Shown here in pieces: positions 4,899 to 24,324 of a stretch of 64,000 bases of DNA. How positions within the stretch are numbered: position 1 is the first letter of the stretch; every line of letters begins with the position of its first letter. Location of the stretch: NCBI RefSeq assembly GCF_900142325.1, contig NZ_FRAM01000001.1:62001-126000 (forward strand), written 5' to 3'. The translations under genes were made by a program, and so were the position numbers. The notes below the pieces were generated by a model. It did no database searches. It was not told the DNA's origin and saw only the letters and a program-made list of their open reading frames with translations. This stretch comes from Epilithonimonas mollis. GTDB lineage: Bacteria; Bacteroidota; Bacteroidia; Flavobacteriales; Weeksellaceae.

Positions 4899-5002
4899 AA
4901 TAATTAAATTGTTGTTTTTTAAAATTTTCCTACTCTATTTGCTTTTCGGATATCGCATTTAAAATTCGTCGACATTAATTATCCATCAAACTCAAATCCA
5001 AA

Positions 5003-5042
5003 AATCAAAAAAAATACGCTTCCGAAAACAACATCGGAAGCG
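5003..5042 (-). terminator. rho-independent terminator ending the defence operon
   Basis: A 9-bp perfect stem CGCTTCCGA / TCGGAAGCG (5017-5025 and 5034-5042) has an 8-nt loop. On the minus strand it is followed by TATTTTTTTTGATTTTT. It lies 36 bases past the LytTR stop codon and separates the operon from the AbiV-like gene. Confidence 0.9.
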
Positions 5043-5078
5043 CAGGAACAACAGCTATTTTTTGAGTAATGAAAGCGG

Positions 5079-5828
5079 TCAGCTAAAGGCTTTTCTAACG
5101 CCCGGCTGATAATTTTCGGATACTTTTATGTAGTCGGATTTAGTTTTACCCTGACCGTCAAAAATGCTTACTTCTATCTTTTCAGTTTTGGGATGGTAAC
5201 ATTTGATATGTTTCCTGTTCACCCGAAAAGATTTATGAACCGTGATAAACTGAGATTTCAATAAGCCACTCTCTTCCATTCTGGTAAATGAAAAATCTAC
5301 CAAACTGGCAGGCGCGGCGTTGATAAAATAGATTTTCTTGTTATTAGACTCGTTTTTGTTGGCACAGAGATAGACAATATCATCAATAAGAATTTTGTTC
5401 TTGTTTTTATTGAAATCCAAAGTCACATACTGCGGAGGCGAAAAGAAACTGACTTCCTGCAAAAAGCGTTTAAAACTTTTGACAAAATGCTCCTCACGGA
5501 AAGGTTTGGTAATATGATCCACACAGATTTCTTCATCTCGTTTCAGGTTTTCAATATCTTTTACATATTCTTTTGTATTAACACTGGCAAAAAACACAGG
5601 GATTTTCACTTCCTGAGCCACTTCCATTCCGGTCATGCTGTCATGTCCGAGATCAAGGTCTGCCACCAATATATCTGCATTAATGTTGGGAAGCTTTTGG
5701 AAAAAATGCTCAGAATCTCTGCTTTTCAGCACGATTTGTACATTCGGGATTTGACTTAGATAAGCTTCTAACTTATCCAGTTGCTTTTGGTTGTCTTCAA
5801 GGATGGCGATGCGGAAGGTGTGGGGCAT
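5079..5828 (-). CDS. LytTR-family response regulator (orphan)
   Basis: From the ATG at 5828 (a TTG three codons earlier is possible) this is 249 residues. The receiver domain spans about 1-120, with the acidic pair Glu11-Asp12, the likely phosphoacceptor Asp57 in ADILVADLDLG, and the conserved Lys in DHITKPF. The C-terminal half has a LytTR DNA-binding pattern: a beta strand set with KILIDDIVYLCANKNESN, then FITVHKSFRVNRKHI. The gene starts 14 nt after the stop of the DUF262 gene 5843-8035, so it is part of the same operon, and it is the last gene before the terminator. No histidine kinase is in the island. It may control the operon or answer an unlinked kinase; both are inference. Confidence 0.85.
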   Translation of the reverse strand: MPHTFRIAILEDNQKQLDKLEAYLSQIPNVQIVLKSRDSEHFFQKLPNINADILVADLDLGHDSMTGMEVAQEVKIPVFFASVNTKEYVKDIENLKRDEEICVDHITKPFREEHFVKSFKRFLQEVSFFSPPQYVTLDFNKNKNKILIDDIVYLCANKNESNNKKIYFINAAPASLVDFSFTRMEESGLLKSQFITVHKSFRVNRKHIKCYHPKTEKIEVSIFDGQGKTKSDYIKVSENYQPGVRKAFS

Positions 5829-5842
5829 GATGAGCAAATTTG

Positions 5843-8035
5843 TTAAATTCCTTTAAAAAATTCTTCTATAAAATTACCTCCAACAACTACTCTATCTTCT
5901 ATATCTAATCCATCGACATTTCTATTTATTAAAATCTCATAATTTTCGGTAAGCTTACCATCATTAATTAATTTTTCCAAATATTCATGAGTTTTCTTTG
6001 TCACTTTTTCTTCAATATAAAATCCTTGATTATTAGCTCTCAATTTTACTGAAATATTCTTTTTTGTTAATACCAATGAGTCTCCGTAAATACCCAAACT
6101 AACTTTAGTATTATATTTAGAACTTAAAGCATATAAAAATGGACTCCAATGAGACCCTCCTAAAGATGTTTTTTTCATTACATAGTAATTCAAATCTTCA
6201 TCAGAAACTGGCCAATATAAAAATCCATCCTGATTAATTTCAAACATATCATAGTTAATATAATAATAAATCCAATCTTTTGGATAATCTGGATTATTTT
6301 GAAAATTAACCTTATAATCATTAACTATTGACTCAATTGATTTACTATTATCTGCTAAAAGATTTTCTATTAAACTGTATACGGATTTCTGAGTTTTTTC
6401 AAAAAACTTCCTACTATTACTGGGAGTAAATAACTCACGCCAACTTGAATCATTTCTCGTGCCTAATCTCCATCTCCAGTTATAAAGTTGTGTATAATCA
6501 ATTGTAGCTAATAGTGCATATGACATCAACTTATAATCCACAACATCCGAAAAAAGATTTCTAAAGTTAGTAGTGTACTGATTAAAATTATTATCAAAAT
6601 CAAATAATGCTAAAGAACCACGCAGAAGTTTGTGATCCTCTGTTTTATAAATTTCATCTCTATTCTCAAAATGATTTTCAATAATCTGTTGCTTAAGCTT
6701 TTCTTCAATTATTTGTCTTGTATTGAATTTTGATTCCTGATTAATATTACCTGTTGTAATCAAAAGTTCGGTATCTGATAACAACAAGCTCAAATTATCA
6801 AAACGAACAGTATCTTCAGAATTTGCAACTAAATTTCGTAGCATCCTCAACCTTGCTGAAAAGTCTTCTGTATCATTTATCAAATGTATTAAATAAGCAA
6901 ACAGTAATATTTGCTCCCCTAAAGAAAATGGATTAACTCTTTCATCTGGACTATACAAAGTAGAGCATTTGTAAAATAAATTAACATCTGGCTTGTCAAA
7001 AAAGATTCTTACTTTCGAATCGTGATAATCTAATTCATCTACATAAAATAATGATTCAAATACTACTGGTTTATCACAAAGTACATCAAAAGATTTAAAA
7101 AGAAAAGAAACATTTTCTGAATTATTATATAAATCATCATATAAAAGTTTATCGACAACATTTGATTTTTCTACATTATTTTTTAAACAAAGAATATCCG
7201 ATATATAATAATAAAAACGAAGAAATGCTTTATCTGACAGGAGTGCTAAATCAGAACCTTCCAAATTTTTATGCATATCCCAAAATAAGTCAGACCATTT
7301 TTGATCAACATCATTCTTAAATTTACCCACAAATGTTGTTGGAATAATTTCTGAAAATTGAGATTTAAAATATTCAAAAGTATTTAATTCTTTTCCCCTA
7401 GAATTCATTTTTATATAGAGATCATCAGGAAGACCTAATTTATCCATCGGCAACAAATGAAAAACAATTCGTGAATTATGTCCAATTAATGTATCAATGG
7501 AAATTTGAGAATCTTTAAAAATGCATTCCAAAGCATCAAGTACTGTAAGTATTGAAAAAATAGTAGGATCATTATTCCATGATGTAAAAAACCAAGGCTG
7601 ATCAGTAATATTTTTAGCAATATTAGAAAAATGCTTACCTGGATCAAATTCAACCAATTTTTCACAAAAAACATTCGAGGAATGTCTAGTTTCATATGAA
7701 AATTGCCTAAACAATGGTTTAAGCTCTTCTAATCTTCCCTCTTTTACTGCCAAAATATAATGCAGAAGAAATAGAGTTGTTAAGCGCTGTTGACCATCAA
7801 GCGGAATAAAGTGCTCCACATCAACACTTTCTTTGCTATACGTTTTAACGTATCCATAAATAAAATCTAATTCTAAATTTCCATTCTCATCTTGCAAAGC
7901 AGATTTTATGGAGTTTAAAAATTTAGTTCGTATGGCAGTAATCTTTTCTGATTTTCTACCTTGAGCATAATCCCTTTGAATTAATGGAATTACAATTTTA
8001 TATCTGGATATTAAATTCCAAAAACTTGTTGTCAT
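5843..8035 (-). CDS. DUF262 (GmrSD-type) protein without visible HNH domain
   Basis: A 730-residue protein with the DUF262 signature in its first 100 residues: IPLIQRDYAQGR (about 16-27) and PLDGQQRLTTLFLLHYIL (about 78-95). DUF262 has a ParB-like fold that in GmrS and BrxU-type proteins binds and hydrolyses nucleotides to drive cutting of modified phage DNA. I find no C-terminal DUF1524 HNH motif (no HxxP/HIxxQ plus N...KR set). The long C-terminal part is of unknown class, with WRWRLGTRNDSSWRELF and a hydrophilic end. It lies 19 nt after a second DUF262 gene that does have an HNH-like end, so the two may act as a pair. AT-rich. Confidence 0.8.
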   Translation of the reverse strand: MTTSFWNLISRYKIVIPLIQRDYAQGRKSEKITAIRTKFLNSIKSALQDENGNLELDFIYGYVKTYSKESVDVEHFIPLDGQQRLTTLFLLHYILAVKEGRLEELKPLFRQFSYETRHSSNVFCEKLVEFDPGKHFSNIAKNITDQPWFFTSWNNDPTIFSILTVLDALECIFKDSQISIDTLIGHNSRIVFHLLPMDKLGLPDDLYIKMNSRGKELNTFEYFKSQFSEIIPTTFVGKFKNDVDQKWSDLFWDMHKNLEGSDLALLSDKAFLRFYYYISDILCLKNNVEKSNVVDKLLYDDLYNNSENVSFLFKSFDVLCDKPVVFESLFYVDELDYHDSKVRIFFDKPDVNLFYKCSTLYSPDERVNPFSLGEQILLFAYLIHLINDTEDFSARLRMLRNLVANSEDTVRFDNLSLLLSDTELLITTGNINQESKFNTRQIIEEKLKQQIIENHFENRDEIYKTEDHKLLRGSLALFDFDNNFNQYTTNFRNLFSDVVDYKLMSYALLATIDYTQLYNWRWRLGTRNDSSWRELFTPSNSRKFFEKTQKSVYSLIENLLADNSKSIESIVNDYKVNFQNNPDYPKDWIYYYINYDMFEINQDGFLYWPVSDEDLNYYVMKKTSLGGSHWSPFLYALSSKYNTKVSLGIYGDSLVLTKKNISVKLRANNQGFYIEEKVTKKTHEYLEKLINDGKLTENYEILINRNVDGLDIEDRVVVGGNFIEEFFKGI

Positions 8036-8054
8036 TAATTATATCTTATAGTTA

Positions 8055-9848
8055 TTAGTTTATATATGGAAGCAACACTTTTTTTATTTCCTCTAAATAA
8101 GCTTCTCGGTCATTTTGTCCCCAAAAATAATATTGTTGCGATGTATTTTTTTTGTCATAATACTTCAGAAAAACTCTCTTTGTACAGACAGGAATATAAC
8201 TTCCAATTTTATCTAAATTAATTATTTCACGTCGTTTAACTTCAAATACAGAATTACTTAATACTGCATTTTCATTATGACCTAATAAAGCTAAATTTGA
8301 AATATTATGAGAATCAGTATTAATATCTTGATTTTCTTCAGAAAATTTACGAATTACATTTTGTGCTAATTTTTCAAAAATTTCCCAAGTAATTTTATCA
8401 TCGCTAAGTGACTCAACCTCATTTAAAAGTTTTTGTAAATCAGATTTTTCATTCTCTTCAGGCGTATCGTCGAGAATATCTTTGATTAGTTTTTTATGAT
8501 AATCTAACCATTTCAACCATTGTTCACGCTTATTTTTATCCAAAAATTCTGAATTTTGTGCATGTATATGTTCTAAACTCCATTTTTGATTTTTATGAAA
8601 TTTAAATGGATAAAATTCGGTTATTTTCTCATTTGTCCTTATGGCTTCGATATTAAACAACATCAATATCCTCTCAATTTTTTTATAATCGCCACTCTGA
8701 TTATAGTTTAAAGAATCAATATCTTTCTCCAAACTATCAGAAATCATTGAATTAAGTTGTTCCTCAAAATAGGATTTGTTGACGGTTACAGACAATTCTA
8801 CTAGTTCATTTAAATCTTTATTAATCGCAATCAAATATCCTATCTTGTGATACAAGTTTTTACTTTTATACCACTCCAATAATGTATAATAATATTTTTC
8901 AACTGTTAACCACAAATCCCATAAACTATAATTTTCTTTTTTAGAATCCTTAATAAAGTATAAAAAGGTAAAAAGAGGGTCGATATCACTTTTTTGTTTT
9001 TTAGAAATTATGTCAAAAAGCAATTCTATTTTAGTATCATATTTTTCTTTTCTAATATTTGTAATAAATGACCAAAAATCATCATCATTAAGTTGTTGCT
9101 CTATAATATCCCAAAGTTGAGATATGACAATTTTTTTTCTATTTGCAACTTCTAAAAAATCATCTTTAAAACTTGATGAAGATAAAAAAATTGCTTTTAT
9201 CAATTCTGCGTTTGTCAATGGAATTTTACCCATGTTTAGACGATTAAATAGCTCAACGCTATCAAGATCCTTGTCAGCAGTATACCAAATTACTTGAACA
9301 GATTTATTATCATCTTTTCGCCCTAATAAAGTATCTAAAAAGTCATTCTTATCTTTTCTATTCAATTGTTTTTTATCATTTTCGAACCATTCTTTAACTG
9401 TTTTGTATGCTTGCGAGATATGAAAAAAATCAATATTGGATTTATCATCTTTTATTTCTTTTAAAAAATCATGACTCTTTATACGTGTCTCATACTGAAT
9501 CGTATATATCTCCTTTGAATATTCTTCTTCTAGCGAGTCAACTTTTAGGAATTCGCGCATTAAATATTGTAAAATAATGTAGATTGTCGTTAACCGTTGT
9601 TGCCCATCAACGATCTCATAAGACTGTGATGCCCCAGTAGAATCTAAATTGATATTTTTAACCACAATTGGTTGTAGACAGTAGAAGTCTTTTTCATTAA
9701 TATTTTGCGCTTTAGAAAAACTGAAAATATCTTCAAGTAAATCTTCTACATGATGTTCTGTCCATCTGTAACCTCTTTGATAGTAAGGTATAAAATATTG
9801 TTTACCTAGCAAATCATTGATTGTCATCAGAGTAATTTGGTTATCCAT
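8055..9848 (-). CDS. DUF262 + DUF1524-like HNH protein (GmrSD-type)
   Basis: A 597-residue protein. N-terminal DUF262: FIPYYQRGYRWTEHHVEDLLEDI (about 18-40) and YEIVDGQQRLTTIYIILQYL (about 77-96). The C-terminal domain has SLEHIHAQN followed, about 90 residues later, by HNISNLALLGHNENAVLSNS and FEVKRREI. This matches the DUF1524 HNH nuclease pattern of GmrSD, where NTP-dependent cutting of modified (glucosylated) phage DNA has been shown. It is therefore the more complete of the two DUF262 proteins here. It has no signal or membrane segment. It follows the GIY-YIG gene after a 93-bp AT-rich gap, the widest gap inside the operon, which could hold an internal promoter. Confidence 0.85.
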   Translation of the reverse strand: MDNQITLMTINDLLGKQYFIPYYQRGYRWTEHHVEDLLEDIFSFSKAQNINEKDFYCLQPIVVKNINLDSTGASQSYEIVDGQQRLTTIYIILQYLMREFLKVDSLEEEYSKEIYTIQYETRIKSHDFLKEIKDDKSNIDFFHISQAYKTVKEWFENDKKQLNRKDKNDFLDTLLGRKDDNKSVQVIWYTADKDLDSVELFNRLNMGKIPLTNAELIKAIFLSSSSFKDDFLEVANRKKIVISQLWDIIEQQLNDDDFWSFITNIRKEKYDTKIELLFDIISKKQKSDIDPLFTFLYFIKDSKKENYSLWDLWLTVEKYYYTLLEWYKSKNLYHKIGYLIAINKDLNELVELSVTVNKSYFEEQLNSMISDSLEKDIDSLNYNQSGDYKKIERILMLFNIEAIRTNEKITEFYPFKFHKNQKWSLEHIHAQNSEFLDKNKREQWLKWLDYHKKLIKDILDDTPEENEKSDLQKLLNEVESLSDDKITWEIFEKLAQNVIRKFSEENQDINTDSHNISNLALLGHNENAVLSNSVFEVKRREIINLDKIGSYIPVCTKRVFLKYYDKKNTSQQYYFWGQNDREAYLEEIKKVLLPYIN

Positions 9849-9941
9849 TAATATAGTTTTTTTTAATTAGTATAATTTTATTTCATAAGTAACATTCATT
9901 TGTTGTTATTATCCATAAATAACTCCCATTGAAAACATTTG

Positions 9942-10889
9942 TTAAATTTTTGTAATGGTTAAAACAAAGTCTTTTCTAAGCTTAATTATGACGGTCTTCG
10001 TCTCTATTTTGCTCCTAGTTAGAAAGTAATCTAAATCACGCGCAACTGCACTTCCCCCAATATTGTTAGAGACTTTACCTTCACTATATTGAAGTCGAAA
10101 GCTATAGCTTTTCCTATTTCCTACTTTTTCAAATAGACCTCTATCTAACTGAATCGTATTCTGAATAATATTACTTTTAAGAGCTTTATGAATTTCATCT
10201 GAATATTGTTGCCAAATGTGAACATACTTACCAACTGAAATACTGTCGGGAGTTATTTCTTTTTTGGACGGTAATACTTCATTTGTTAATCTCACTCCTA
10301 AAGTTAAATGCTCTCTCATATAGTTAGTATGAGCAGTTAAACCTAACTGTTTTCTTAATTTTCGAATAAAAGATTTATAGGGATTATCTATACTTTTAGA
10401 ATCAATATTCAAAACTGGATTTAAATATTGAATCAACTCTGTTTCCAAATTACAAATTGCTTCTTTTCCTTCTGGATATTCGTAAAAAGCTACGGCCAAA
10501 TTTTTAAACATCCAATCTGTAATTCTTTCTTCAGAAACCTCATCAAATTTAAAATGACTTGTTCTTCCTTTGATAAAGTCAGAAGTACTTCTGACGACTG
10601 GAATTATCTTTTCTGATTGAGATAACAATGCTCCGATACTTTTCCTAGCTGTAGAACTTCCTGTCTTACCTGTTTTAAAATGAGTATTGGCATCTCTCGA
10701 TTGCTGACTGCTTTCTGTTTTTCCGATATAAATCAATTTATTATCTGGCAGGGAAAAGCCTTTGATAGGAAATTCTTTACCAATAAAGAAAATCGCATAA
10801 ATTCCTGGTAGTTTTGAATATTTTTCAATTCTATCGACAGCAATCTGAGTTTTGATAAAATGATTTATTATAGCTACAGTCTTGTTCAT
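9942..10889 (-). CDS. GIY-YIG nuclease-family protein
   Basis: The 315 residues include the GIY-YIG module near the N-terminus: LPGIYAIFFIG (about 28-38) and NKLIYIGKTES (about 50-60). Next come a conserved RDANTHF and a TGKTGSSTARKSIGALL stretch with the Arg expected on the catalytic helix. A downstream acidic residue in CNLETELIQYLNP completes the usual metal site. The C-terminal part (about 170-315) is not recognised. In related proteins this domain nicks or cuts DNA. The gene starts 4 nt after the XRE-like HTH gene, so the two are probably translationally linked. A nuclease role in the defence operon is inferred. Confidence 0.75.
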   Translation of the reverse strand: MNKTVAIINHFIKTQIAVDRIEKYSKLPGIYAIFFIGKEFPIKGFSLPDNKLIYIGKTESSQQSRDANTHFKTGKTGSSTARKSIGALLSQSEKIIPVVRSTSDFIKGRTSHFKFDEVSEERITDWMFKNLAVAFYEYPEGKEAICNLETELIQYLNPVLNIDSKSIDNPYKSFIRKLRKQLGLTAHTNYMREHLTLGVRLTNEVLPSKKEITPDSISVGKYVHIWQQYSDEIHKALKSNIIQNTIQLDRGLFEKVGNRKSYSFRLQYSEGKVSNNIGGSAVARDLDYFLTRSKIETKTVIIKLRKDFVLTITKI

Positions 10890-10893
10890 TTTA

Positions 10894-11082
10894 TTATAGG
10901 TTCTTTTGCGTTTTTATATTCAGTATAAAATCTTTATCAAGTCCTCTTTTTATATATGTACTAATATCACTTACTTTAGATAAAAATCCGTAATCCTCAA
11001 TTTGAGTAATTTTATTAAAGCTAAGTCCTGTTTTTTCTGAAAATTTCTTCTTAGAAAGATTGCGAATTGCTTTTAACTGCAA
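10894..11082 (-). CDS. short XRE-like helix-turn-helix protein, uncertain start
   Basis: From a TTG at 11082 this gives 62 residues with a compact HTH: QLKAIRNLSKKKFSEKTGL, then SFNKITQIEDYG, then a KVSDISTYIKRGL helix, as in HigA/XRE regulators. In the same frame the homologous-looking region continues upstream (DYESFKFG just before the TTG) as far as the TAA that ends the 95-residue gene. No ATG or GTG lies between. Either it starts at TTG with a complete HTH but a clipped N-terminus, uses a rare ATT start, or is reached by readthrough. It lies 4 nt before the GIY-YIG gene. It may repress the operon; that is inference. Confidence 0.5.
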   Translation of the reverse strand: MQLKAIRNLSKKKFSEKTGLSFNKITQIEDYGFLSKVSDISTYIKRGLDKDFILNIKTQKNL

Positions 11083-11154
11083 ACCAAATTTGAAAGATTC
11101 ATAGTCTGAAGTAAAAATATCAGAATCAATTTGTAAATCTTTTAAAATTGACTT

Positions 11155-11442
11155 TTAAAATGATTCCCATTTTTTAAGTTCATTTTGTCTAGGAAACAGC
11201 AGTTTATTGAGTAAATGAAAATAAAGCCTGAAATAATGCTTATAAAAAGGGTTTCTAATCATCTTATCAAAAATCAAATTATTATAATCCACATAAGTTC
11301 CAAAGTTGGTATCGTATTCTGGATCATTGTACAGCGTTAAGCTTGCCTCAATCATAAAAAGCATTCTTTTCTGTTTACTTACATCTAATGTTTTTAGATA
11401 AGTGATAAACAATTCTCTAGAAAAAGAAAGATTAGAATCCAT
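11155..11442 (-). CDS. hypothetical protein, 95 aa, in defence operon
   Basis: An ATG-started small protein, rich in Phe, Tyr, Leu and Lys, with no recognised family. The middle (RMLFMIEASLTLYNDPEYDTNFGTYV) and the end (HYFRLYFHLLNKLLFP) look helical, and the second could be amphipathic. It begins 10 nt after the Res stop codon and so is almost certainly co-translated in the operon. Its stop TAA (11155-11157) is in the same frame as the XRE-like HTH that follows. That raises the question whether the two once formed one protein of about 180 residues. Confidence 0.55.
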   Translation of the reverse strand: MDSNLSFSRELFITYLKTLDVSKQKRMLFMIEASLTLYNDPEYDTNFGTYVDYNNLIFDKMIRNPFYKHYFRLYFHLLNKLLFPRQNELKKWESF

Positions 11443-11452
11443 AGCTTAAACT

Positions 11453-14449
11453 TTACACCTGATTATTAACATCATCCATATTATGCGCAACAATCATTCT
11501 GCTTCCAATGGCTTCGAAGTGGGCTTTACCACATTTTATTTTTCCACTTTCTATAGGTTTTAGACCTGCATCGAAAATAGTTCCTTTTGATTCTGTAACA
11601 AAATAAAGCTTTTCTCCTTCTCCCTTATTGTACAAGATTGCCCAGTCTGGATTATATGAACCCAAAGGTGTTGCAATCTTAAACCAGCCGGGAAGCTTGG
11701 TATATAAACTTACATTTTCACTACTCTCAAACTCTCTTGCAAGATTAAGCTCAATATCCGAATCACACAATGTGTAATCAAATGCTGATTTGGAGGCTTC
11801 TACCATATATTTGCTAAGATAACCGATGGCATCTGTTTCTTCAAGTCTTTTCTGTTCGTAGAAATCGTGGTCACCAATCTTCTGATATTTGATACCCTCT
11901 ACTATGAAAAGTCTTTTCTGTAGATTAATGACCTCTATGCAACTTTCTATAAATGCTTGCGGATTGGTTTTGAAATATTTTAAAATTCTTGGTTCCAGAC
12001 CTTTCAAGATAAAAACAATTGTTTTGCGGGTAAGATCTGTTTCATTTTGCAAATAAGTGATAATATCTGGCAGGCTTCTGACTTCCACATCCAGATGTTC
12101 AACATAAGTTTTCAAATCTCCATCAGTTGCGATACCGCCTTTACCCACTGCCAGTTTTCCTTTTACAAACTCTATTTTGGATTGCTGATTTAGTACGTTG
12201 GCATTGATTGATTTGATACAGTTTTCAATTAATTTTTCTGAGTCAAACTCTACCTGATAAACCGTTTTATACTTGATAGTATCCCAAAGGTTTTTAAAAT
12301 CTTCTGACAGATAAACCTCTTTGTTAACCTTGATATCTACTTTGTTATCACTATTTTTTATTTCCAGTGATCCTGCAACTTGTTTTAGGATATTATAGAT
12401 TTGCTTCGACACGGTTTCATCAAATTCTTGTCCAAGGTCAACTCTTTCTTCTTTGATATGAGTCTTCAAATTATCAAGAATTTTTCCTGTTTTATTGATG
12501 TAGCCTAATTCTATAAAAGTCTGATAAATCTGATTGGAAACTTCCTGACCTAAATAAACAGGCTCATCATTTTCATCCAAAGATGTTACAACAGTATTAA
12601 ATGATTCTATCGCTAAATGTCCGAATTTAATTCCTGTATCTTCTGTTAATTCCTTTTGATAGCCTTCTACAAAATCTTTAAAACTTTCATTGACTACTGT
12701 TGTTAGTATATTTACATTTTCATCATAAACCCTGTTTCCAGATTGATCTACAGGAATTCTCAAACCACGACCGATTTCTTGTCTTCGATTAATTTCGGAA
12801 TTACCCATCTCTTTCAACAAACAAATTTGGAAAACATTAGGATTATCCCAACCCTCTTTCAAGGCAGTATGTGAAAATATGAAGCGTACAGAAGATTCAA
12901 AACTCAAAAGCTTTTCCTTATCTTTCATAATCAGGTGATAGGTATCTTCATCAGCCTTTACTGATCCACTAGTATCTTTGAAGTATTCAAACTTATCTTT
13001 TGAATTGGATTTTTTTGCTTTTTTATCACTGGAAAAGTAACCTTTGTGTACATCAGAAACGTTTATCTCTAAGTCTTTAACCTCTTTGAACAAGGATAAT
13101 TTGTATTTCGGCGACTGAATAATCCTGTTATATTCTTCTTCAAAGATTTGCGCATACTCTCCATTGATTGGGTTTCCTTCTTCATCATATTCTCTATATC
13201 TGGAAACTCTATCTATGAAAAACAGACTTAAAACCTTGATACCCTTTGGGTTTAGTTTCACTTCTTTATCAAGGTGTTCCTGAATGGTTTTTGCAATTAG
13301 TTTTCTTTTGATATCACTATCATTGATGCCTCCTAGAGTTTGACCCACTTGTAAAAACTGTCCGTTAGAAAACTCTACAAAAGCTGGCTCAACACTTATC
13401 TCACTTACGTTGAAACCGTAATATTGATCTAGCTTGGTAATCTGATAAAGGTCATCACCCAATTTCACTTCTTTTGAAGATCTTGTTACTTTTCCATTTT
13501 TTCCTTTAACATCAATATTTAGTTTGGCTTTAAATCCATTTTTATTACTTACGCTCAAAACCTGAATGTACGCCCCATCACTCACTTGATCTTTTGCAGT
13601 TACAGATGCCACCTCAATCTTTTTGACTTTACCATCATTGTATGCATCTATGGAATCAAATTTATAAAGTAAGTTTATTTTGTCTCTGTGTGTTGCTGAG
13701 AATCGAAATATAGCCAATGGATTTAGATTTTGAATTGACTTTTTCCTTAATTCAGACTCTATTGTCGTTTGTGGTTCATCTACAATCACAATGGGATTGG
13801 TATCTTGTAGTAAACTGATTGGTTTTGCGCCTAACTTATCATTATAATCCAGCAAAATACGTTTTGTTCCTTTTGAAGCATCGATATCCTGAGAAAACGC
13901 CTGAATATTGATAATCATAATTCTCACCTGATCAGAAGTGGCAAAATCCCTAACTTGACCTAGATTTGAACTATTATAAACAAAATGTATATATGGCGTA
14001 TTTTCAAAAACAGTTTTGAAATGCTCATCCGTCAACTTCAGTGAACTATCGATCCCTTCACGGATAGAAACTGATGGCACTACAATAATAAACTTCTTAA
14101 AACCATACTTACGATTCATCTCCATAATAGAACGTGTGAAAACGTAGGTTTTACCTGTTCCTGTTTCCATCTCAATGGAAAATTGCAAATCGTTTTTGTC
14201 TATTTTATTGGGGTCTGATATGCGCAAACCATTTTTCATTTGAATGGTTTGTACATTTTCTATCAATTGTTTGGGTAACAAATTGACTTTATTACCATAG
14301 CCCAAATCTGCATCATAATCAATAGACTGGTCTTTGGGTGCAAGAACTGTAAAATTGGATTGTAGCTTTTCCTGTCCTTTAAAAACATCTACCACCGCTT
14401 CTATGGCATCTTGCTGATAAGCCAGATTACCTTCAAATTGTATTTTCAT
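11453..14449 (-). CDS. res: type III restriction enzyme, Res subunit (DEAD/DEAH helicase + nuclease)
   Basis: A 998-residue protein with SF2 helicase motifs: Walker A IEMETGTGKTY (about 92-102), motif II VIVDEPQ (222-227; DEPQ is typical of Res), motif III FSATH, and motif VI RRQEIGRGLRIP. The C-terminus carries a PD-(D/E)XK nuclease motif, NPDWAIL (about 933-939) then YFVTESKG (about 949-956), giving Asp935...Glu953-x-Lys955. In type III systems Res uses ATP to track along DNA and cuts with Mod after recognising head-to-head unmethylated sites. It lies 10 nt after mod. Length and motif set are those of an intact enzyme. Confidence 0.93.
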   Translation of the reverse strand: MKIQFEGNLAYQQDAIEAVVDVFKGQEKLQSNFTVLAPKDQSIDYDADLGYGNKVNLLPKQLIENVQTIQMKNGLRISDPNKIDKNDLQFSIEMETGTGKTYVFTRSIMEMNRKYGFKKFIIVVPSVSIREGIDSSLKLTDEHFKTVFENTPYIHFVYNSSNLGQVRDFATSDQVRIMIINIQAFSQDIDASKGTKRILLDYNDKLGAKPISLLQDTNPIVIVDEPQTTIESELRKKSIQNLNPLAIFRFSATHRDKINLLYKFDSIDAYNDGKVKKIEVASVTAKDQVSDGAYIQVLSVSNKNGFKAKLNIDVKGKNGKVTRSSKEVKLGDDLYQITKLDQYYGFNVSEISVEPAFVEFSNGQFLQVGQTLGGINDSDIKRKLIAKTIQEHLDKEVKLNPKGIKVLSLFFIDRVSRYREYDEEGNPINGEYAQIFEEEYNRIIQSPKYKLSLFKEVKDLEINVSDVHKGYFSSDKKAKKSNSKDKFEYFKDTSGSVKADEDTYHLIMKDKEKLLSFESSVRFIFSHTALKEGWDNPNVFQICLLKEMGNSEINRRQEIGRGLRIPVDQSGNRVYDENVNILTTVVNESFKDFVEGYQKELTEDTGIKFGHLAIESFNTVVTSLDENDEPVYLGQEVSNQIYQTFIELGYINKTGKILDNLKTHIKEERVDLGQEFDETVSKQIYNILKQVAGSLEIKNSDNKVDIKVNKEVYLSEDFKNLWDTIKYKTVYQVEFDSEKLIENCIKSINANVLNQQSKIEFVKGKLAVGKGGIATDGDLKTYVEHLDVEVRSLPDIITYLQNETDLTRKTIVFILKGLEPRILKYFKTNPQAFIESCIEVINLQKRLFIVEGIKYQKIGDHDFYEQKRLEETDAIGYLSKYMVEASKSAFDYTLCDSDIELNLAREFESSENVSLYTKLPGWFKIATPLGSYNPDWAILYNKGEGEKLYFVTESKGTIFDAGLKPIESGKIKCGKAHFEAIGSRMIVAHNMDDVNNQV

Positions 14450-14459
14450 AGAAACAATG

Positions 14460-16340
14460 TTATATAGATTTCACATTTTCGATACCAACTTGTCTCAGCG
14501 TCTGGATGGTATTGGTTTTATCTGCATCAGATGCAAAACCTGAATCTTTGAAAATCACGGCTGGGTTAGCATCAGCCGATTCTTTGTGCCACTCGCCAAT
14601 AGTTTTAGCAACTTCTATTGTAATATGATCACTTAAGCAGATATACATAGACCCAAAACCAATGTTATAGATTGTGTTATCACCAATCTGTTTTTCCTGT
14701 ATTGGCAAAGTCAGCTCTAGACCATATTTTAAAAGAATCTCAAACAACACATCTTCTTCTGTTCTATTGGTTTTGATGTGATCACCATTGTTTTCTGCAT
14801 ATAAATCTAATTGCCCTTCAAACTCATCTACTGAGGTATCCCAAGCATTGATATTGGAAGAATCTAATTTGAAAACACGGAAACCAGTATCTAGATTTTC
14901 GATACCTTCTTTATCTTTATTTTCTTTTTTTATAAGTTCTCCTGCTCTGCGTATGCGTTCTTTTGTAATTTCTGCAATGGTTTTATATCCCGCTTTGTAG
15001 GCTTCAGATCTTTCATCAGTTGGTTCTGGCAATTGCACTGAGATACATTTTCTATTGCCTTCATCTTCCGCATTGAGAGCCATAACTGCGTGTGCAGTGG
15101 TTCCTGAACCAGAGAAAAAATCTAATATTATGTCATTCTTACTCCGCTCTGCAATTTTTATTATTTGCTTTAATAACTTAGTTGGTTTAGGTGTATCAAA
15201 AGGAACAGTCGTTTCCTTGAACAAATCTCTAATTTCCGATTTAGCACCAATGTTATGTCCGAAATCATTGTAATTCCATATAGTAATTGGAACTATTCCA
15301 TTTTGAACTTCACTTAAAAATGTTTTAGAATAGGGTCTAGAATTTCCATCTTTTCCAAATGTTATTCTATTATCGCGTAGAAGTTCAGAGTATTTTTCCT
15401 GCGAAACAACCCAAGCTCTTGAAGGTGGCGGAGTGTATTTTTGGCCATTAGGTCCAGTGATTATATAATCATTATTCTTTGAATAAGTTTTAACTGACAA
15501 ATTAGTTGCAATCCAAGGTCCTCTTGAATCATTATCAGGATTTTTATATTTAGCATTTAACTCATCTGGTCTTTCCATTAAATTTGGTTTCCAAAAAGTT
15601 TTATTTTTGCAGTAAACCAAAATAAAATCGTGAACATCAGAGAAATATTGTGCATCATTAGCAGCACCATATTTTTTATGCCAAATCACATTAGTTATAA
15701 AATTTTCGTCACCAAAAATTTCGTCACATAATTTCTTTAAATTAGACTGTTCATTATCATCAATAGAAAGAAAAATTACACCATCATCTGCCATTAGATT
15801 TCTAGCCAATTTTAAACGAGGATACATCATATTCAGCCAATTGCTATGGTATCTACCATCGCTATCAGTATTTGTACTCAGCTTTTTACCTTCTTCATCG
15901 GTTTGACCAGTCAGCTCAAGATAATTGGAAAGGTTGTCTTTGTAATTATCTTTATAAACAAAATCTTTTCCCGTATTGTATGGCGGATCTATATAGATCA
16001 TCTTGATTTTGTTGCTGTAAGATTTTTGCAACAGTTTCAATACCTCCAGATTATCGCCTTCTATAAAAATATTTCCAGTAGTATCCCAATCTTTGCTTTC
16101 CTCTTTGCTCGGGCGCAAAGTTCCGGTAGAGACTTTGTTGGCTTCTTTTTGGGCTTCGGTTTTCCCTGCCCAAGTCATTTGATAGAATTCTTTGTCTTTT
16201 TGGATGTATTCTCCTACCAAAGCCTCCAACTCATCTACCACCAATTTACCTTCACTAAAAGCTGTTGGAAAGATCTCTTTCAGTCTTTCAATATTTTGTG
16301 TTACGATATCTTCAGAAGTTAGCTCAGTGATCTTTTCCAT
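14460..16340 (-). CDS. mod: type III DNA adenine methyltransferase, Mod subunit
   Basis: 626 residues with the beta-class N6-adenine methylase order: catalytic motif IV MIYIDPPYNTGKDFVY (DPPY at about 118-121) before the AdoMet-binding motif I DIILDFFSGSGTTAHAVMALN near residue 400. The central part between them is the variable target-recognition region. Mod methylates one strand of a 5-6 bp asymmetric site and gives the Mod-Res complex its specificity. The start overlaps the end of the DUF4391 gene by 17 nt. No simple-sequence repeat is visible in the coding region, so phase variation of the kind seen in some mod genes is not indicated. Confidence 0.93.
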   Translation of the reverse strand: MEKITELTSEDIVTQNIERLKEIFPTAFSEGKLVVDELEALVGEYIQKDKEFYQMTWAGKTEAQKEANKVSTGTLRPSKEESKDWDTTGNIFIEGDNLEVLKLLQKSYSNKIKMIYIDPPYNTGKDFVYKDNYKDNLSNYLELTGQTDEEGKKLSTNTDSDGRYHSNWLNMMYPRLKLARNLMADDGVIFLSIDDNEQSNLKKLCDEIFGDENFITNVIWHKKYGAANDAQYFSDVHDFILVYCKNKTFWKPNLMERPDELNAKYKNPDNDSRGPWIATNLSVKTYSKNNDYIITGPNGQKYTPPPSRAWVVSQEKYSELLRDNRITFGKDGNSRPYSKTFLSEVQNGIVPITIWNYNDFGHNIGAKSEIRDLFKETTVPFDTPKPTKLLKQIIKIAERSKNDIILDFFSGSGTTAHAVMALNAEDEGNRKCISVQLPEPTDERSEAYKAGYKTIAEITKERIRRAGELIKKENKDKEGIENLDTGFRVFKLDSSNINAWDTSVDEFEGQLDLYAENNGDHIKTNRTEEDVLFEILLKYGLELTLPIQEKQIGDNTIYNIGFGSMYICLSDHITIEVAKTIGEWHKESADANPAVIFKDSGFASDADKTNTIQTLRQVGIENVKSI

Positions 16341-17094
16341 ATTGGTCTATCTTGTATTTTAGTTCTTGTATTTTTTCTTTGAGGTCGTGAATATCGGAAT
16401 TTATCCTGACTTTTTCACTCATTTGGGTAGCATCCTGTAGTTGCTTTTGATAATAATCTATGTTGCTCTGATAGTTAGCGACTGATTCACTGATTCCTAA
16501 TAACTCGTCCGTCACTTCGTAAGTCCTTATTTTGAATTCTTTAGTCAAATCAATCAAGTTATAGTTCTTTACAATTTGGAGGTAGTAATCGTAAAATGCT
16601 TTTAGATTTAAAGTATTGGCGTTAGAGAAAGATAATGCTTCTAAAAATTCTTTGTACCGATCACTCAAAGAAACAGAAAACAGTTCTTCTGATAAAACCC
16701 GTAGTCTGACATCGTTCTTATTAATATTTTTAGAACTGAGGCTAATGTTCTCGCTGAGCTCGTCATCCGATTGTGTGATAATGAGACAATGGTGCGGAAT
16801 CAATTTGTGAATCAAACGAGAAATGGGTTTGTAATACTTCTCATAAACCTCACTCCTGATATTCACCTGGATAAAATAAACCTCTACGAATGAGATTTGT
16901 TCCTCTATAAACTCTGAAATATTGGCGTTACCTTTGCTGACTATTCCGAATAGTCTGATGCTCTGGATGTCGCTCCCGTCTAGTAGCTTTGCTTCACTCA
17001 AAGTGATGTGATCCTGAGATTTTAGCGACGCTTTGGTGATTGGAACATTCATCTGGCAAGCAGATGGTAAGTTAAAAATCTCTTTCCAATCCAT
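16324..17094 (-). CDS. DUF4391 protein
   Basis: 256 residues. The N-terminal part (WKEIFNLPSACQMNVPITKASL... and VEVYFIQVNIRS...YYKPISRLIHKLIPHHCLIITQ) fits DUF4391, a family found next to helicases and site-specific methylases in restriction-like operons. The last 60 residues (ISESVANYQSNIDYYQKQLQDATQM... DLKEKIQELKYKIDQYG) form a predicted coiled coil, probably for assembly with a partner. It starts 2 nt after the helicase stop and overlaps mod by 17 nt, so helicase, DUF4391 and Mod are tightly coupled. Its biochemical role is unknown. The position suggests a bridge between the helicase and the Mod-Res complex, which is inference. Confidence 0.75.
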   Translation of the reverse strand: MDWKEIFNLPSACQMNVPITKASLKSQDHITLSEAKLLDGSDIQSIRLFGIVSKGNANISEFIEEQISFVEVYFIQVNIRSEVYEKYYKPISRLIHKLIPHHCLIITQSDDELSENISLSSKNINKNDVRLRVLSEELFSVSLSDRYKEFLEALSFSNANTLNLKAFYDYYLQIVKNYNLIDLTKEFKIRTYEVTDELLGISESVANYQSNIDYYQKQLQDATQMSEKVRINSDIHDLKEKIQELKYKIDQYGKDH

Positions 17095-17096
17095 AG

Positions 17097-20000
17097 CTAT
17101 GAAACAATTAGATAACTGATGACCTCATATTCAGACTTTCTAGAAGTTTTACCCATCAGTGATCCATTTGGATTAAAGATAGAATTGAGCTCCATTGTTT
17201 TTTCTTCACCAGATAAATGATTTCTGACGATATCTAATAAATCAACATATTGATTCATATGTTTGCCAGATTTGGTTTTGACATTAAATTGCTTTAGCAA
17301 TTCTTCCTTAATTGATAATTTGCCGTAGGACAATTTCTTAAATAAATCTAAAGCCCGTTTTCCCATTTTCATTGGAACTTGTATCTCTCCATCATAAGTA
17401 ACATACACTAGAGAGTAAGGATGCAGTAAATTGGATTTCAGTTTATCATCAAAGTTATTGTTGTCTAAATCTTTTAAACAGAACAAAACACCAGTAGGAT
17501 GATCTATCAGATTATTTTCTACTAAAGAAAATATTCCGCTTGCAAACAATTCGTATTGTTTCAAATCTTCTTCCTTTACTCTTTCCGCATCTACTTTAAA
17601 ATCATTAAATGTAAGATCAGAAATCGAAATACCACCTTCCAGATCTTCCAGATCCACAACAGAATCTTTCATCTTCTCAAGTTGCTTTTTGCGATAATCC
17701 AGTTCTTTAGATTGTCCTTCACGATCATCTATCACATTATCATCTCCGGTAGCAGAAATATCAAGAATTTGCATTCTTCCCTTTACCCTCTTAATCAGAT
17801 CAATGTATTGGTCTAACTCAATATCAGGATAAAAATTAACCAGTTGAATCTGGTCATTTTTTGAACCGATACGATCTATACGCCCAAACCGCTGGATAAT
17901 CCTAACGGGATTCCAGTGGATATCGTAGTTTACGAGATAATCACAATCTTGCAGATTCTGACCTTCAGATATACAATCAGTACAGAAAAGCAGATCAATC
18001 TCTTCTTTCTGATCAGGAAAAACACTTTCTCTGGATTTAGAAATAGGAGAAAAATTGATTAGGATATTCTGCAGATTAGTTTTACAGTCTTTCAAATTGG
18101 TTTTGTTGGTATCACTTCCGGAAACCAAAGCTGATTTAATATTGTATTTATCATCAAATTCTGCTGAGCAATGTTCATAAAGATACTTGACCGTATCTGC
18201 AAAAGCAGAAAAAATTATGACTTTTTTATTGGCTTTATTAATTGGGTTCTCAATTTTTTCTATAATCAGATTTTTAAGATCTTTTAATTTCTGATCTCTT
18301 TCCACATTGATAACTCTACATTTTGTAAGTAAATCAGAAAGAATCTCTCTGTCAGCATTCAGATATTCTTTAAATTTAATCAAATCCATATCCTGTAGCA
18401 GAACTTTTACTTTCCCACCTATAAAGAGATCAGACAGCTGGTCATCTTCAAAATCAAATTCTCGAATATCTATATCGTTCAGAAACTCACGGTGGTTGGT
18501 AATTTTTTCCAGTAAGATATCAGTGTGATTCAACAGTTTTTCTAAGGTCAAGCAAAATGAATGGATGGAAGACTCTAATCGTTTCAAAAGATTGACACGC
18601 ATCAATGTAATGATGCTTTCCTCTCGATCCAACTGACTAAATACTGCTCCTGTCCTTGTCTTCGTGTCATAAACATCAGCATAAGCTTCTCTTTTATGAT
18701 CAAAAACAAAATACATAGGAGAATAAAACTTCAGATTTAGTGATTGTAAAAAATCATTGATGTGTGTAATGGAGAAAGTTTTATTCTCGGTATCAAAGTC
18801 GCTAAACATTGATATTGGTTTTAATCTTGTGGGAAATTTACCTATATCCGCTACATCATAATATTTCTCAATATGTTTTCTAGAGCGTGAAATTGTAAAA
18901 ATGTCTAGTAATTTAAAATAATCACCATCTAATTTATCAACTAGATCTTCACGAGTTGGATTTGGCTGTTTCATCCAATTATTAAACTTTCTCTGCGCCT
19001 GAGTCAAGGTAAGATCAATACTTGTTATACCTTCACCAGCGAGAGCGTGGTCATTAGTTTCAGTTATAAAAGACAATTGATTTTTTAAATCATTTAAACG
19101 TGTGTTTACAGGCGTTGCGGATAATAGTAGAACTTTTGTTCGCACTCCTGATTTTATAACATCACGCATCAATTTCTCATATCGAGAAATGGTAGTATTT
19201 GATGGGTTATTATTTCTGAAATTATGAGATTCATCAATCACAATTAAATCATAATTTCCCCAATGCACAGTTTCAAGATTCACATCTCCTGACAGTCCTT
19301 TTTCACGAGAAAGATCGGTATGATTTAGTACATCAAAGTTTAGTCTATCTCCTACCAAAATATTACGCTTATCATTTAATCGGTACGTTACCCAGTTATC
19401 CCGTAATTTTTTAGGTGCTAAAACTAAAACCCTATCATTGCGAAGTTCATAATATTTGATAATAGCCAACGCTTCAAAAGTCTTTCCCAATCCAACAGAA
19501 TCAGCAATAATACAACCGTTGAATTTCTCAATCTTATCAATTGCTCCTAACACAGCATCCTTTTGAAAATTGAAAAGCTTATTCCAAACAACAGAACTTT
19601 TAAATCCTGTCTTAACAAGTCTTTCTTCGTTGATATCTTCAGTTGTCTTGTCCGCGAAAATCTTTGAAATGCTAAATTTATAGTTGAGTTCGGGAAATTT
19701 CAGAACATTGGCGTTTTTGTACAGATTGATAAGTTCATCTTTACAATCTTTAGCTCCATTCCAAATATAGTCAAACGCCTGTTGTAAAGACTTTGAAGTG
19801 TCATCAATTTCAAAAATCATATAAGGTTTACCATCCTTTATGATTCCTAATGTAGTTTCATTAAAATTATTAGGTGCAAATTGAAATGCCTTATCATCAA
19901 TAATTATAAAACTATTACCTCCAGTAATTCCTTTTCTGATTGATACAGAATCATCAACAAAATTTAGAACTTGCTGAAGTCGATAATATGTTTGGAGTTT

Positions 20001-20228
20001 TGAATTAGTTTCATTCTCAGTAACATCATTAACAAAAAATGGTTTCTGAAAATCTAAATCAGTTTGCTGAATAATTATCTGAATTGATTCGACTTCTCGC
20101 AACTTCTCAAGCAAATCAAATATTGAATTATAAGTAAAGTTATTAACACATAACTTTATTCTCGAATTCGAATCAATATTTTGAATTAGTTCGTTTAAAA
20201 ATATTTTATCTTGGTTATTAATAATCAT
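17097..20228 (-). CDS. SNF2-like helicase with degenerate PLD-like N-terminus
   Basis: A 1043-residue protein, first gene of the operon. The helicase core is clear: Walker A IIADSVGLGKTFEAL (about 240-254), motif II VIDESHNFRN (about 330-339), motif III LLLSATPVN (about 367-375), and a C-terminal lobe with VIIFSAFADTVKYL, LLFCTDCISEGQNLQ and motif VI RIIQRFGRIDRIGS. The first 140 residues include NSFIIIDDKAFQFAPNNFNE, which resembles a phospholipase-D HKD segment that has lost its His and Lys. Related phage-defence helicases often carry an N-terminal PLD domain. The protein lacks a signal peptide. It should translocate on DNA and act with Mod, Res and DUF4391 encoded downstream. Confidence 0.9.
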   Translation of the reverse strand: MIINNQDKIFLNELIQNIDSNSRIKLCVNNFTYNSIFDLLEKLREVESIQIIIQQTDLDFQKPFFVNDVTENETNSKLQTYYRLQQVLNFVDDSVSIRKGITGGNSFIIIDDKAFQFAPNNFNETTLGIIKDGKPYMIFEIDDTSKSLQQAFDYIWNGAKDCKDELINLYKNANVLKFPELNYKFSISKIFADKTTEDINEERLVKTGFKSSVVWNKLFNFQKDAVLGAIDKIEKFNGCIIADSVGLGKTFEALAIIKYYELRNDRVLVLAPKKLRDNWVTYRLNDKRNILVGDRLNFDVLNHTDLSREKGLSGDVNLETVHWGNYDLIVIDESHNFRNNNPSNTTISRYEKLMRDVIKSGVRTKVLLLSATPVNTRLNDLKNQLSFITETNDHALAGEGITSIDLTLTQAQRKFNNWMKQPNPTREDLVDKLDGDYFKLLDIFTISRSRKHIEKYYDVADIGKFPTRLKPISMFSDFDTENKTFSITHINDFLQSLNLKFYSPMYFVFDHKREAYADVYDTKTRTGAVFSQLDREESIITLMRVNLLKRLESSIHSFCLTLEKLLNHTDILLEKITNHREFLNDIDIREFDFEDDQLSDLFIGGKVKVLLQDMDLIKFKEYLNADREILSDLLTKCRVINVERDQKLKDLKNLIIEKIENPINKANKKVIIFSAFADTVKYLYEHCSAEFDDKYNIKSALVSGSDTNKTNLKDCKTNLQNILINFSPISKSRESVFPDQKEEIDLLFCTDCISEGQNLQDCDYLVNYDIHWNPVRIIQRFGRIDRIGSKNDQIQLVNFYPDIELDQYIDLIKRVKGRMQILDISATGDDNVIDDREGQSKELDYRKKQLEKMKDSVVDLEDLEGGISISDLTFNDFKVDAERVKEEDLKQYELFASGIFSLVENNLIDHPTGVLFCLKDLDNNNFDDKLKSNLLHPYSLVYVTYDGEIQVPMKMGKRALDLFKKLSYGKLSIKEELLKQFNVKTKSGKHMNQYVDLLDIVRNHLSGEEKTMELNSIFNPNGSLMGKTSRKSEYEVISYLIVS

Positions 20229-20247
20229 TAGTTAAAGTTTTCAAAGT

Positions 20248-20255
20248 CAAATATA
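20248..20255 (-). promoter_or_regulatory. candidate -7 element for the defence operon
   Basis: On the minus strand TATATTTG matches TAnnTTTG exactly, 19 nt before the helicase ATG. No clear -33 TTG is visible at the expected distance, so strength is uncertain. Confidence 0.4.
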
Positions 20256-20310
20256 ACCAAAAAACCACATTGTTAACTACTTGAACTGACGAGCGAAATT
20301 AAACTGTGTT

Positions 20311-21267
20311 TTATATCCCGAAGTTGATGAATAGGCTGAACCTGGATCCGGCCTCGATATCTCCGCCTGCCAAACGGGTATAAGCAGGCAACATCAGTTC
20401 ACTTCCGAGGCTGAACTTTTTGTAAGACACTTCGAATCCAAGTTTACTATACAATGCACTGCCCGCAGTTCTGGGCATCACTTCACCAAACTGCCTGTTC
20501 GCATCATACACCTCTCCCTGAAGCCCGAGCTTCCCGGAAACGGTGCTGTTGCTGCTACGCCAAAGGGTATAAAAGCCTGTCGCCGAATAGTTCCACTGGT
20601 TACCGAACCGGTAATTCTTTTTGTTTTCTGTTTTGATGGTGTAATCTGTGTTCAGCATCAAGGCGAAAAGGTTTTTCTGGAATTTGTAGCTCAGTGCCAG
20701 CTGGTAATCCCAGCTTCCCGTCCCCAATTGGAAACTCGGATTGACACCTGTGATCCCTTTTTCATCAAACCTGCCTAACGGAATCTTAACGCCTGCGCCG
20801 CCATTGAGCTGATGGTATTCGTTTTTGGATCTGAGGATCTCGTAGATGCCCATCACGGCAGCATCCCCTATTCCGCTGATCTTAATGTCGCCCTGCAAGG
20901 TTTTCTTATCATGAAACTGAAACGGAATGCTTCCGTAGATACTCAGCTTGCGGGTGACCGGGATCTTGCCCCATATCTGAATGGTATTGAAATACTGATC
21001 CTGTGTCAGATCCTGTGTGAAGAGATTCTCTCTGGCTTTGTAATCCTGTGCAAAATATTTGACGCCGATGAATTGGGGATTAAGCAAGGATTCGAAGCCT
21101 GATGAGCCATTACCTGCCGCACAACCGCAGGCATCGCAGAAGAATTCTTCGTATCCTGACAAATGCTTTAGCCGGTTTTCATATTGAGGAATATAGAGAC
21201 TGTCCCGGTTGGCTTTTATTTGCTGAGACAGAATGAACAGTAGTAGAACTATGACTGATTTTTTCAT
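20311..21267 (-). CDS. exported outer-membrane beta-barrel protein with CDACGC motif
   Basis: I start at the ATG at 21267, where a good signal peptide begins (MKKSVIVLLLFILSQQIKA), giving 318 residues; the upstream in-frame ATG at 21306 only adds a basic leader. After the signal comes a cysteine cluster, EEFFCDACGCAAGNGSSG, then alternating beta strands typical of a porin-like barrel (GVKYFAQDYKARENLF, KLSIYGSIPFQF, YHQLNGGAGVKIPLGRF, WDYQLALSYKFQ) and a terminal strand SRFSLFINFGI ending in Ile. The Cys cluster could bind a metal. It lies downstream of the MauG/MbnH-like and MbnP-like genes on the same strand, so a role in metal uptake or efflux across the outer membrane is plausible. Confidence 0.75.
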   Translation of the reverse strand: MKKSVIVLLLFILSQQIKANRDSLYIPQYENRLKHLSGYEEFFCDACGCAAGNGSSGFESLLNPQFIGVKYFAQDYKARENLFTQDLTQDQYFNTIQIWGKIPVTRKLSIYGSIPFQFHDKKTLQGDIKISGIGDAAVMGIYEILRSKNEYHQLNGGAGVKIPLGRFDEKGITGVNPSFQLGTGSWDYQLALSYKFQKNLFALMLNTDYTIKTENKKNYRFGNQWNYSATGFYTLWRSSNSTVSGKLGLQGEVYDANRQFGEVMPRTAGSALYSKLGFEVSYKKFSLGSELMLPAYTRLAGGDIEAGSRFSLFINFGI

Positions 21268-24304: not shown

Positions 24305-24324
24305 GAATCTGTTTTGAGGGTTTA

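Follow-up and report, generated by a model that had tools for sequence, protein, structure and literature searches.

A restriction operon in Epilithonimonas mollis

The DNA analysed here, called the window throughout, is a 64,000-nucleotide stretch of contig NZ_FRAM01000001.1 of Epilithonimonas mollis (Bacteroidota, Weeksellaceae; assembly GCF_900142325.1, positions 62,001 to 126,000). Ten minus-strand open reading frames (ORFs) of the window ORF listing fill positions 5079-20228 and probably form a composite restriction operon, in which a four-gene core built around a type III restriction-modification (R-M) system is followed by cargo that includes a pair of DUF262 genes resembling GrwAB. An earlier note on this DNA had described a ten-gene operon with close spacing, two larger gaps of about 70 and 93 bp and one strong terminator at its end. 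Read from the helicase end, the gaps between successive ORFs measure 2, -17, 10, 10, 72, 4, 93, 19 and 5 nt, as that description had it, and the terminator at 5015-5044 (-) is a strong one with a stem of 11 pairs (5044-5015) and a tail of eight T. The gene number is lower by one, since the 95-aa ORF and the 62-aa helix-turn-helix (HTH) ORF, counted in the note as a 'small' and an 'HTH' gene, are one gene; the operon therefore comprises nine genes, one of them broken.

A promoter-like -7 box, TATATTTG (20248-20255, -), starts 27 nt upstream of the helicase ATG. The motif TANNTTTG, a -7 motif of Bacteroidota, is matched ten times on the minus strand of 5000-20500, and the match before the helicase is the only intergenic one. 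With their close spacing, single terminator and single intergenic promoter-like box the ten ORFs look like one operon, which would be read as a single transcript.

Proteins of the four-gene core

The first core gene (17097-20228, -) encodes a SNF2-like helicase/ATPase of 1043 aa comprising the Pfam domains SNF2-rel_dom and Helicase_C. Its motifs VGLGKT (residues 245-250), DESH (332-335) and QRFGR (779-783) are at least 90% conserved among 90 sequences, and it is 83% identical to the helicase of Chryseobacterium taichungense (locus L161), which holds the closest core found. The second gene (16324-17094, -) encodes a 256 aa DUF4391 protein (PF14335, E 8.8e-28) whose AlphaFold model (pLDDT 95.7) consists of an alpha/beta domain and a long C-terminal helical hairpin. 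A Foldseek search against the PDB gave no match at E<=0.001 for either the whole protein or residues 1-166, and the VIA-align list for the whole protein was taken up by matches to the hairpin (residues 190-256). P10, K21 and P100 are near-invariant in this protein.

The third gene (14460-16340, -) encodes a type III Mod of 626 aa, a beta-class amino-methyltransferase with a Pfam N6_N4_Mtase domain, which does not separate m4C from m6A enzymes. It contains DPPYNTG and scores 767 bits to the PADLOC model MTase_III and 254 bits to the Mod of EcoP15I. The fourth gene (11453-14449, -) encodes the 998 aa Res, a helicase-nuclease with ResIII and RE_endonuc domains that scores 950 bits to REase_III of PADLOC and 205 bits to the Res of EcoP15I; its METGxGKT motif and D935/E953/K955 are at least 95% conserved among 78 sequences. 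A beta-class Mod with DPPY and AdoMet motifs adjoining a Res with Walker motifs and a PD-(D/E)XK motif places the two proteins in type III R-M. The catalytic motifs of helicase, Mod and Res are intact in the window as well as conserved elsewhere. Of the core proteins compared between the window and L161, Mod shows the lowest conservation (64% vs 70-87%), a sign of quicker change in Mod. The L161 locus also holds an AlbA_2/HATPase_c_4 protein between its Mod and Res (L161:15888-17780).

Pfam bears out domain calls of the earlier note both for the core (SNF2-rel/Helicase_C, DUF4391, N6_N4_Mtase, ResIII with RE_endonuc) and for the genes that follow it (GIY_YIG_2, GmrSD_N or DUF262 twice, and a response regulator with LytTR).

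Conservation and spread of the core

Relatives of the helicase were gathered from the genus and order of the host, from its phylum (395 genomes), from plasmids, from viral contigs and from a collection with one genome per species. The best 80 of at least 583 stretches were used from the last of these, so that frequencies among loci are not population frequencies, and the phylum searches scored few candidates per genome (two in most rows for helicase, Res and D262b, the second DUF262 protein), so that extra copies may be missed. With a cut-off of more than 250 bits for the helicase relative this yielded 158 loci, the window included, 88 of which hold helicase, DUF4391, Mod and Res complete, in the same order and on one strand. 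This recurrence is beyond chance. The other 70 loci comprise 50 with less than 7 kb downstream of the helicase, three with weak helicase relatives and 17 with enough sequence in which the complete ordered set was not called; these 17 are taken up below. DUF4391 is among the next four genes after the helicase in 93 of 112 loci (L128-L240).

Judged by record titles, the helicase loci span Flavobacteriales, other Bacteroidota, Pseudomonadota, Bacillota, Deltaproteobacteria, Cloacimonadota, Verrucomicrobia, Planctomycetes and archaea, and the full cores include those of Methanosarcina (L179), Methanocorpusculum (L238), Cloacimonadota (L176) and Clostridium (L182). All four core genes are annotated in six of the eight plasmid regions opened (from 492 plasmid records matching the helicase), the other two being without an annotated intact Res. 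A distant search matched the helicase in 88 of 5426 E. coli genomes over less than half of the query; both E. coli regions opened have all four core genes annotated, and a 6.1-kb E. coli piece that covers helicase, DUF4391 and Mod is at least 80% present in 23 of the 5426 genomes. The genes that follow the core in the window are absent from all eight plasmid regions and from both E. coli regions. Comparison thus shows helicase, DUF4391, Mod and Res as one conserved four-gene system. This four-gene form of type III R-M extends over several bacterial phyla, with E. coli among its hosts, and into the archaea.

Two side observations concern the surroundings of the helicase. In L077, L079, L080, L083 and L148 helicase relatives are followed by ORFs of 805-1560 aa that score to the DUF4391 profile, and in L082, L084 and L087 a long ORF after the helicase did so in one of two locus scans; possibly these are DUF4391 fusions or a separate branch lacking a type III Mod-Res. 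Of the 81 full-core loci with sufficient upstream sequence, 59 have a small ORF immediately before the helicase gene. These small ORFs include two recurring HTH-like groups with seven and five members, one of which is related to proteins named MAD1 in RefSeq (L106, L128, L142, L147, L149, L167, L168, L173, L203 and L214; also L273:9252-9416). The upstream neighbour of the window helicase is a 331-aa gene unrelated to them.

Accessory slots

A simple script supplied the ORF calls for the fetched loci, taking the longest ORFs (in the core count labelled ORFs first), so the slot counts hold some false or missed small genes. Besides the window there are 87 full-core loci; 70 of these carry accessory genes of at least 90 aa and 17 carry none. 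The interval between DUF4391 and Mod and the one between Mod and Res are each occupied in 38 loci, the position directly after Res in 40 and the interval between helicase and DUF4391 in five. Pfam searches with 112 inner and 71 trailing accessory proteins showed that many match known defence families; the matches listed, which cover the 25 commonest of 68 inner and of 59 trailing families, include AlbA_2, the DUF1016/YhcG nuclease, GmrSD, AAA_15 (OLD-like), Fic, PemK, DarT, TIR, SIR2 and McrBC.

DUF262 proteins were sought with a profile to which the hits of its first round had been added once. Of 112 loci, 15 have such proteins (17 in all) downstream of the helicase and one has them upstream (two-sided binomial p = 5e-4; 826 kb downstream vs 830 kb upstream). 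A locus of Winogradskyella (L171) is the only one of the 15 to hold a pair of the window type and the rest have single DUF262 genes; a lone DUF262 gene is also found between Mod and Res in plasmid region L108. Judged by gene order, the core operon is a chassis whose fixed slots, which follow DUF4391, Mod and Res, take up exchangeable genes. New anti-phage genes may accordingly be sought in the slots, and the recurrence of DUF262 genes among the cargo permits a direct test of whether selection combines the restriction of unmodified DNA with that of modified DNA.

Cargo after Res and the DUF262 pair

The slot directly after Res opens in the window with a regulator gene (10894-11442, -) that is broken by an in-frame TAA. 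Its pieces of 95 aa (11155-11442) and 62 aa (10894-11082, the HTH part) lie in one frame either side of this single stop codon, and L161 has the same regulator gene, broken by a frameshift instead. Pfam gave no hit for either piece, and the gene is taken to be XRE-type from a reading of the sequence. The next gene (9942-10889, -) encodes a GIY-YIG nuclease of 315 aa composed of a GIY_YIG_2 domain (PF20815) and a C-terminal region of about 100 aa. Relatives occur in five of 394 other genomes of the phylum, four of which match solely within residues 214-312. The C-terminal 100 or so residues match stand-alone proteins of 113-136 aa in four genomes of one genus (L124-L127) and may therefore be a separable domain.

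The two DUF262 proteins follow. D262a (8055-9848, -; 597 aa) is GrwA-like and combines a Pfam GmrSD_N domain with a C-terminal His-Me type motif. DGQQR with R85, E426-H427, N518 and N527 are conserved among 13 sequences; PF07510 (GmrSD_C/DUF1524) is not reported by Pfam at 0.001, while the conserved E-H ... N ... N set is present. D262b (5843-8035, -; 730 aa) is GrwB-like, with GmrSD_N, DGQQR including R84, and a C-terminal half lacking a domain assignment.

Relatives of D262b are present in eight other genomes among the 395 of the phylum, and in all eight of these Bacteroidota loci D262a lies directly upstream on the same strand. The fetched stretches of 16 to 20 kb hold no helicase, Mod or Res of the core kind in any of the eight loci, and the 53 phylum genomes that match the helicase at E<=1e-30 include none of the eight. 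In four of the eight loci the pair is embedded in type I R-M genes or adjoins them (the HsdR of L103 and the HsdM of L104 being confirmed by Pfam). The four plasmid regions opened, from 17 records matching D262b, all contain the pair and belong to Actinomycetota, Bacillota, Pseudomonadota and Bacteroidota. In Winogradskyella L171 the same pair is found within the core, this time in the slot that separates DUF4391 from Mod, and its D262b is split in two. The two DUF262 genes are, as their distribution suggests, a separate pair independent of the core, with gene order, domains and motif spacing as in GrwAB.

The chromosomal exchange site

The last gene of the operon (5079-5837, -) encodes a response regulator of 252 aa with Response_reg and LytTR domains and is a gene of the chromosomal site. 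Orthologues of 69-80% identity occur in four of 14 other species of the genus searched, and all four lie near the same DJ-1/PfpI gene (window 1187-1735). Ten other sites of the genus were examined; R-M genes were recognised in G003, G004, G005 and G014 and LytTR in G005, G010, G011 and G014. The stretches fetched for G006, G007, G008 and G012 hold no R-M gene matched by the queries. The far flank is seen whole in G005 and partly in G004 and G010 only.

G005 keeps both flanks of the island in the window, DJ-1 on one side and the genes at 20311-29022 on the other, around a cargo of HsdR, GIY_YIG_2, HsdM, HsdS, McrB and McrC, then LytTR. The cargo of G014 is HsdM, HsdS, an AAA_15 ATPase, GmrSD, HsdR, McrB, McrC and LytTR. 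G003 (HsdR, HsdS, GmrSD, HsdM) and G004 (HsdM, HsdS, AAA_15, HsdR) are both without LytTR; the HsdM of G014, G003 and G004 and the HsdR of G004 were identified by phmmer. LytTR is preceded in G010 (L252) by a gene read from its sequence as resolvase-like and several small genes, and in G011 it follows the contig end. Where present, LytTR is the cargo end nearest DJ-1, and a type IV restriction gene accompanies the R-M genes in four of the five site alleles with recognised R-M, counting that of the window. As the same site carries other R-M cargo in sister species, the window operon is one allele of an R-M exchange site. The LytTR gene on this comparison belongs to the chromosomal site and neither to the core nor to the pair, and its product may regulate whichever R-M cargo occupies the site.

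Directly past the operon terminator, a HEPN_AbiV protein (PF18728) is encoded at window 4179-4898 (-). This is an additional defence gene, sited between LytTR and the DJ-1 flank.

Proposed mechanism and alternative explanations

The explanation that fits best, held with good though not full confidence, is a composite restriction operon in which a four-gene type III core has come together, at a chromosomal exchange site, with a GrwAB-like type IV pair that is a unit of its own and with further cargo. Going by the named families, Mod would methylate host sites and the Mod-Res complex would cut unmethylated incoming DNA as EcoP15I does, ATP-dependent cleavage at inverted sites being the mark of type III enzymes. 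The contribution of the SNF2 ATPase and DUF4391 is the least certain step: they might act as an auxiliary motor on Mod-Res-bound DNA, remodelling or removing the protein there, or they might secure restriction when the Mod-Res pathway is blocked. The slot after Res would here supply the broken XRE-type regulator, the GIY-YIG nuclease and the DUF262 pair. By homology of architecture the DUF262 NTPase domains of the pair would sense phage DNA that is hypermodified, and D262a would cut it with its His-Me domain; phages escaping Mod-Res by DNA modification would therefore meet a second system. A pairing of restriction of unmodified and modified DNA is plausible. It had also been proposed in the earlier note, and that part holds in so far as a type III core is joined to a putative DUF262 system behind one likely promoter, with TgvAB and BrxU as precedents in the excerpts of the cited articles, from which published systems are described here and below; the accompanying view of a single ten-gene system does not.

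Several observations weigh against this explanation. About 11 of the 17 loci that have enough sequence but no complete ordered core as called have Mod and Res called after the helicase with DUF4391 unrecognised (L066, L140, L153, L154, L192, L209, L212, L215, L218, L225 and L237), the rest having Mod, Res or both uncalled; either DUF4391 was overlooked by the profile or the ORF calls, or it is dispensable and a DUF4391-free form of the core exists. Both the window and L161 have a DUF262 gene after the same broken regulator, and this shared order may hint at a closer link than random cargo would have. The likeness to GrwAB is one of domain order and motif spacing. The upstream control for the DUF262 count is non-operon sequence, against which any operon-borne defence gene would show some excess, so that the excess reflects operon membership more than a special DUF262 preference. 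Lastly, the extra helicase-like ATPase of comparable type III systems was unneeded for methylation and was not seen in an active Eco86II preparation (PMC8259958), and a role inside the restriction complex is therefore doubtful.

Two alternatives retain some weight. The genes may merely cluster as independent members of a defence island at a hotspot, without type III and type IV restriction being functionally paired. The exchange of R-M operons at this site among sister species and the diversity of the accessory families agree with this, whereas the arrangement of all genes on one strand with close spacing and one terminator, the excess of DUF262 genes downstream of the helicase and the presence of type IV genes in most of the recognised site alleles do not, and clustering alone is the less likely account. 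Helicase and DUF4391 could likewise be a defence system of their own that travels with type III R-M, as the comparable ATPase of Eco86II, dispensable for methylation and absent from the active preparation, would suggest. In 29 of the 40 best rows for Res relatives there is no strong helicase hit nearby, of which 13 begin within 5 kb of the contig start, where a helicase could be missed. All 15 phylum genomes with a helicase of at least 740 bits, however, also hold a Res at E<=3e-154, as compared with 19 of the other 380 (the counts rest on 30 helicase rows and the best 40 Res rows), which makes an independent helicase-DUF4391 system rather improbable, about as much so as clustering alone.

A bolder extension, which has a small chance of being right, is that helicase and DUF4391 are an auxiliary module making type III R-M a general platform, where the ATPase and the coiled hairpin of DUF4391 would couple recognition by Mod to the slot effectors, including nucleases of the GrwAB type. 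If so, one operon would attack both unmodified and hypermodified phage DNA.

That all ten ORFs (nine genes) encode one integrated system acting together under LytTR/XRE control, as first put forward, is very improbable: spacing, the single terminator and upstream promoter-like box, and the shared regulator-DUF262 order of L161 speak for it, but the full ordered set from helicase to LytTR is in no other fetched locus, the genes downstream of the four-gene core come and go, which the earlier note itself had named as grounds for refuting a single system, core, pair and LytTR each occur apart (the pair alone in 8/8 Bacteroidota loci), and L161 has a single-chain GmrSD directly after the broken regulator, where the stretch ends, with no GIY gene before it and no D262b relative at E<=1e-10 in its genome.

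Comparison with known systems

The composite operon can be set beside several described systems. For the core, the nearest description found is that of a type III subgroup which has a helicase-like ATPase in addition. Murray et al. (2021; PMC8259958) report over 500 genomes in which such an ATPase gene lies 5' of mod close to a type III system. As in their BspHIV/Eco86II subgroup, a gene for an ATP-dependent SF2 helicase-like protein precedes mod and then res; the helicase gene of BspHIV/Eco86II is described as lying immediately 5' of mod, whereas DUF4391 intervenes here. A further mark of that subgroup is m4C methylation, and the N6_N4_Mtase domain of the window Mod would fit either m4C or m6A. 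In the excerpted text of that article a search for words starting with DUF came up empty. The window helicase is likened to those of Eco86II and BspHIV by description only, and related core loci exist in E. coli.

The pair compares best with GrwAB of Vibrio cholerae WASA strains, which restricts phages with 7-deazaguanine or sugar-modified cytosine and requires both genes (PMC12137116). In both cases the first gene encodes DUF262 with a His-Me domain (here by motif) and the second DUF262 with unknown domains, and DGQQR is present in both proteins. The residues singled out in GrwA are R81, H431, N521 and N530 and in GrwB R86; the H-to-N spacing is 91 and 100 residues in D262a as compared with 90 and 99 in GrwA (PMC12137116). 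Unlike GrwAB, the window pair is carried in a type III R-M operon. TgvAB is a two-protein DUF262 system embedded in a type I R-M operon, for which complementary targeting has been proposed (PMC11411939). The window resembles it in having a two-protein DUF262 set inside an R-M operon, but its R-M system is type III and the nuclease is on the first protein, whereas it is on the second, TgvB, in TgvAB; this reversed order of the DUF262-only and nuclease-bearing proteins rules out TgvAB as an identity for the pair. BrxU beside BREX is another precedent for paired restriction (PMC10952713), GmrSD-like genes embedded in R-M and HMA operons are already known (PMC11411939), and ResIII, Helicase_C and type I R-M domains are enriched near GmrSD (Machnicka et al. 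2015; PMC4619093).

HMA had been suggested in the earlier note as the nearest system, and like HMA the window joins a helicase to a methyltransferase within one operon. In HMA, however, the methyltransferase HmaB is of the m5C type and is followed by the ATPase HmaC (PMC8565338), unlike the type III Mod-Res and DUF4391 found here. The window helicase scores 84 bits to HmaA as compared with 384 to C3a139, and the matches listed (25 of 35 in the case of Mod) include neither an HmaB nor an HmaC model, so an HMA identity is rejected. The helicase is also related to DrmD of DISARM, another SNF2-like helicase, at 143.8 bits; the NCBIfam cut-off is 610, and DISARM membership was likewise discarded.

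In the open-access literature searched, DUF4391 appeared in one paper, in an unrelated list, and neither DUF4391 as a constant fourth gene, nor the slot pattern of this core, nor a GrwAB-like pair in a type III operon was found. The parts of the operon are of known kinds; what stands out is their combination and the conserved DUF4391 partner.

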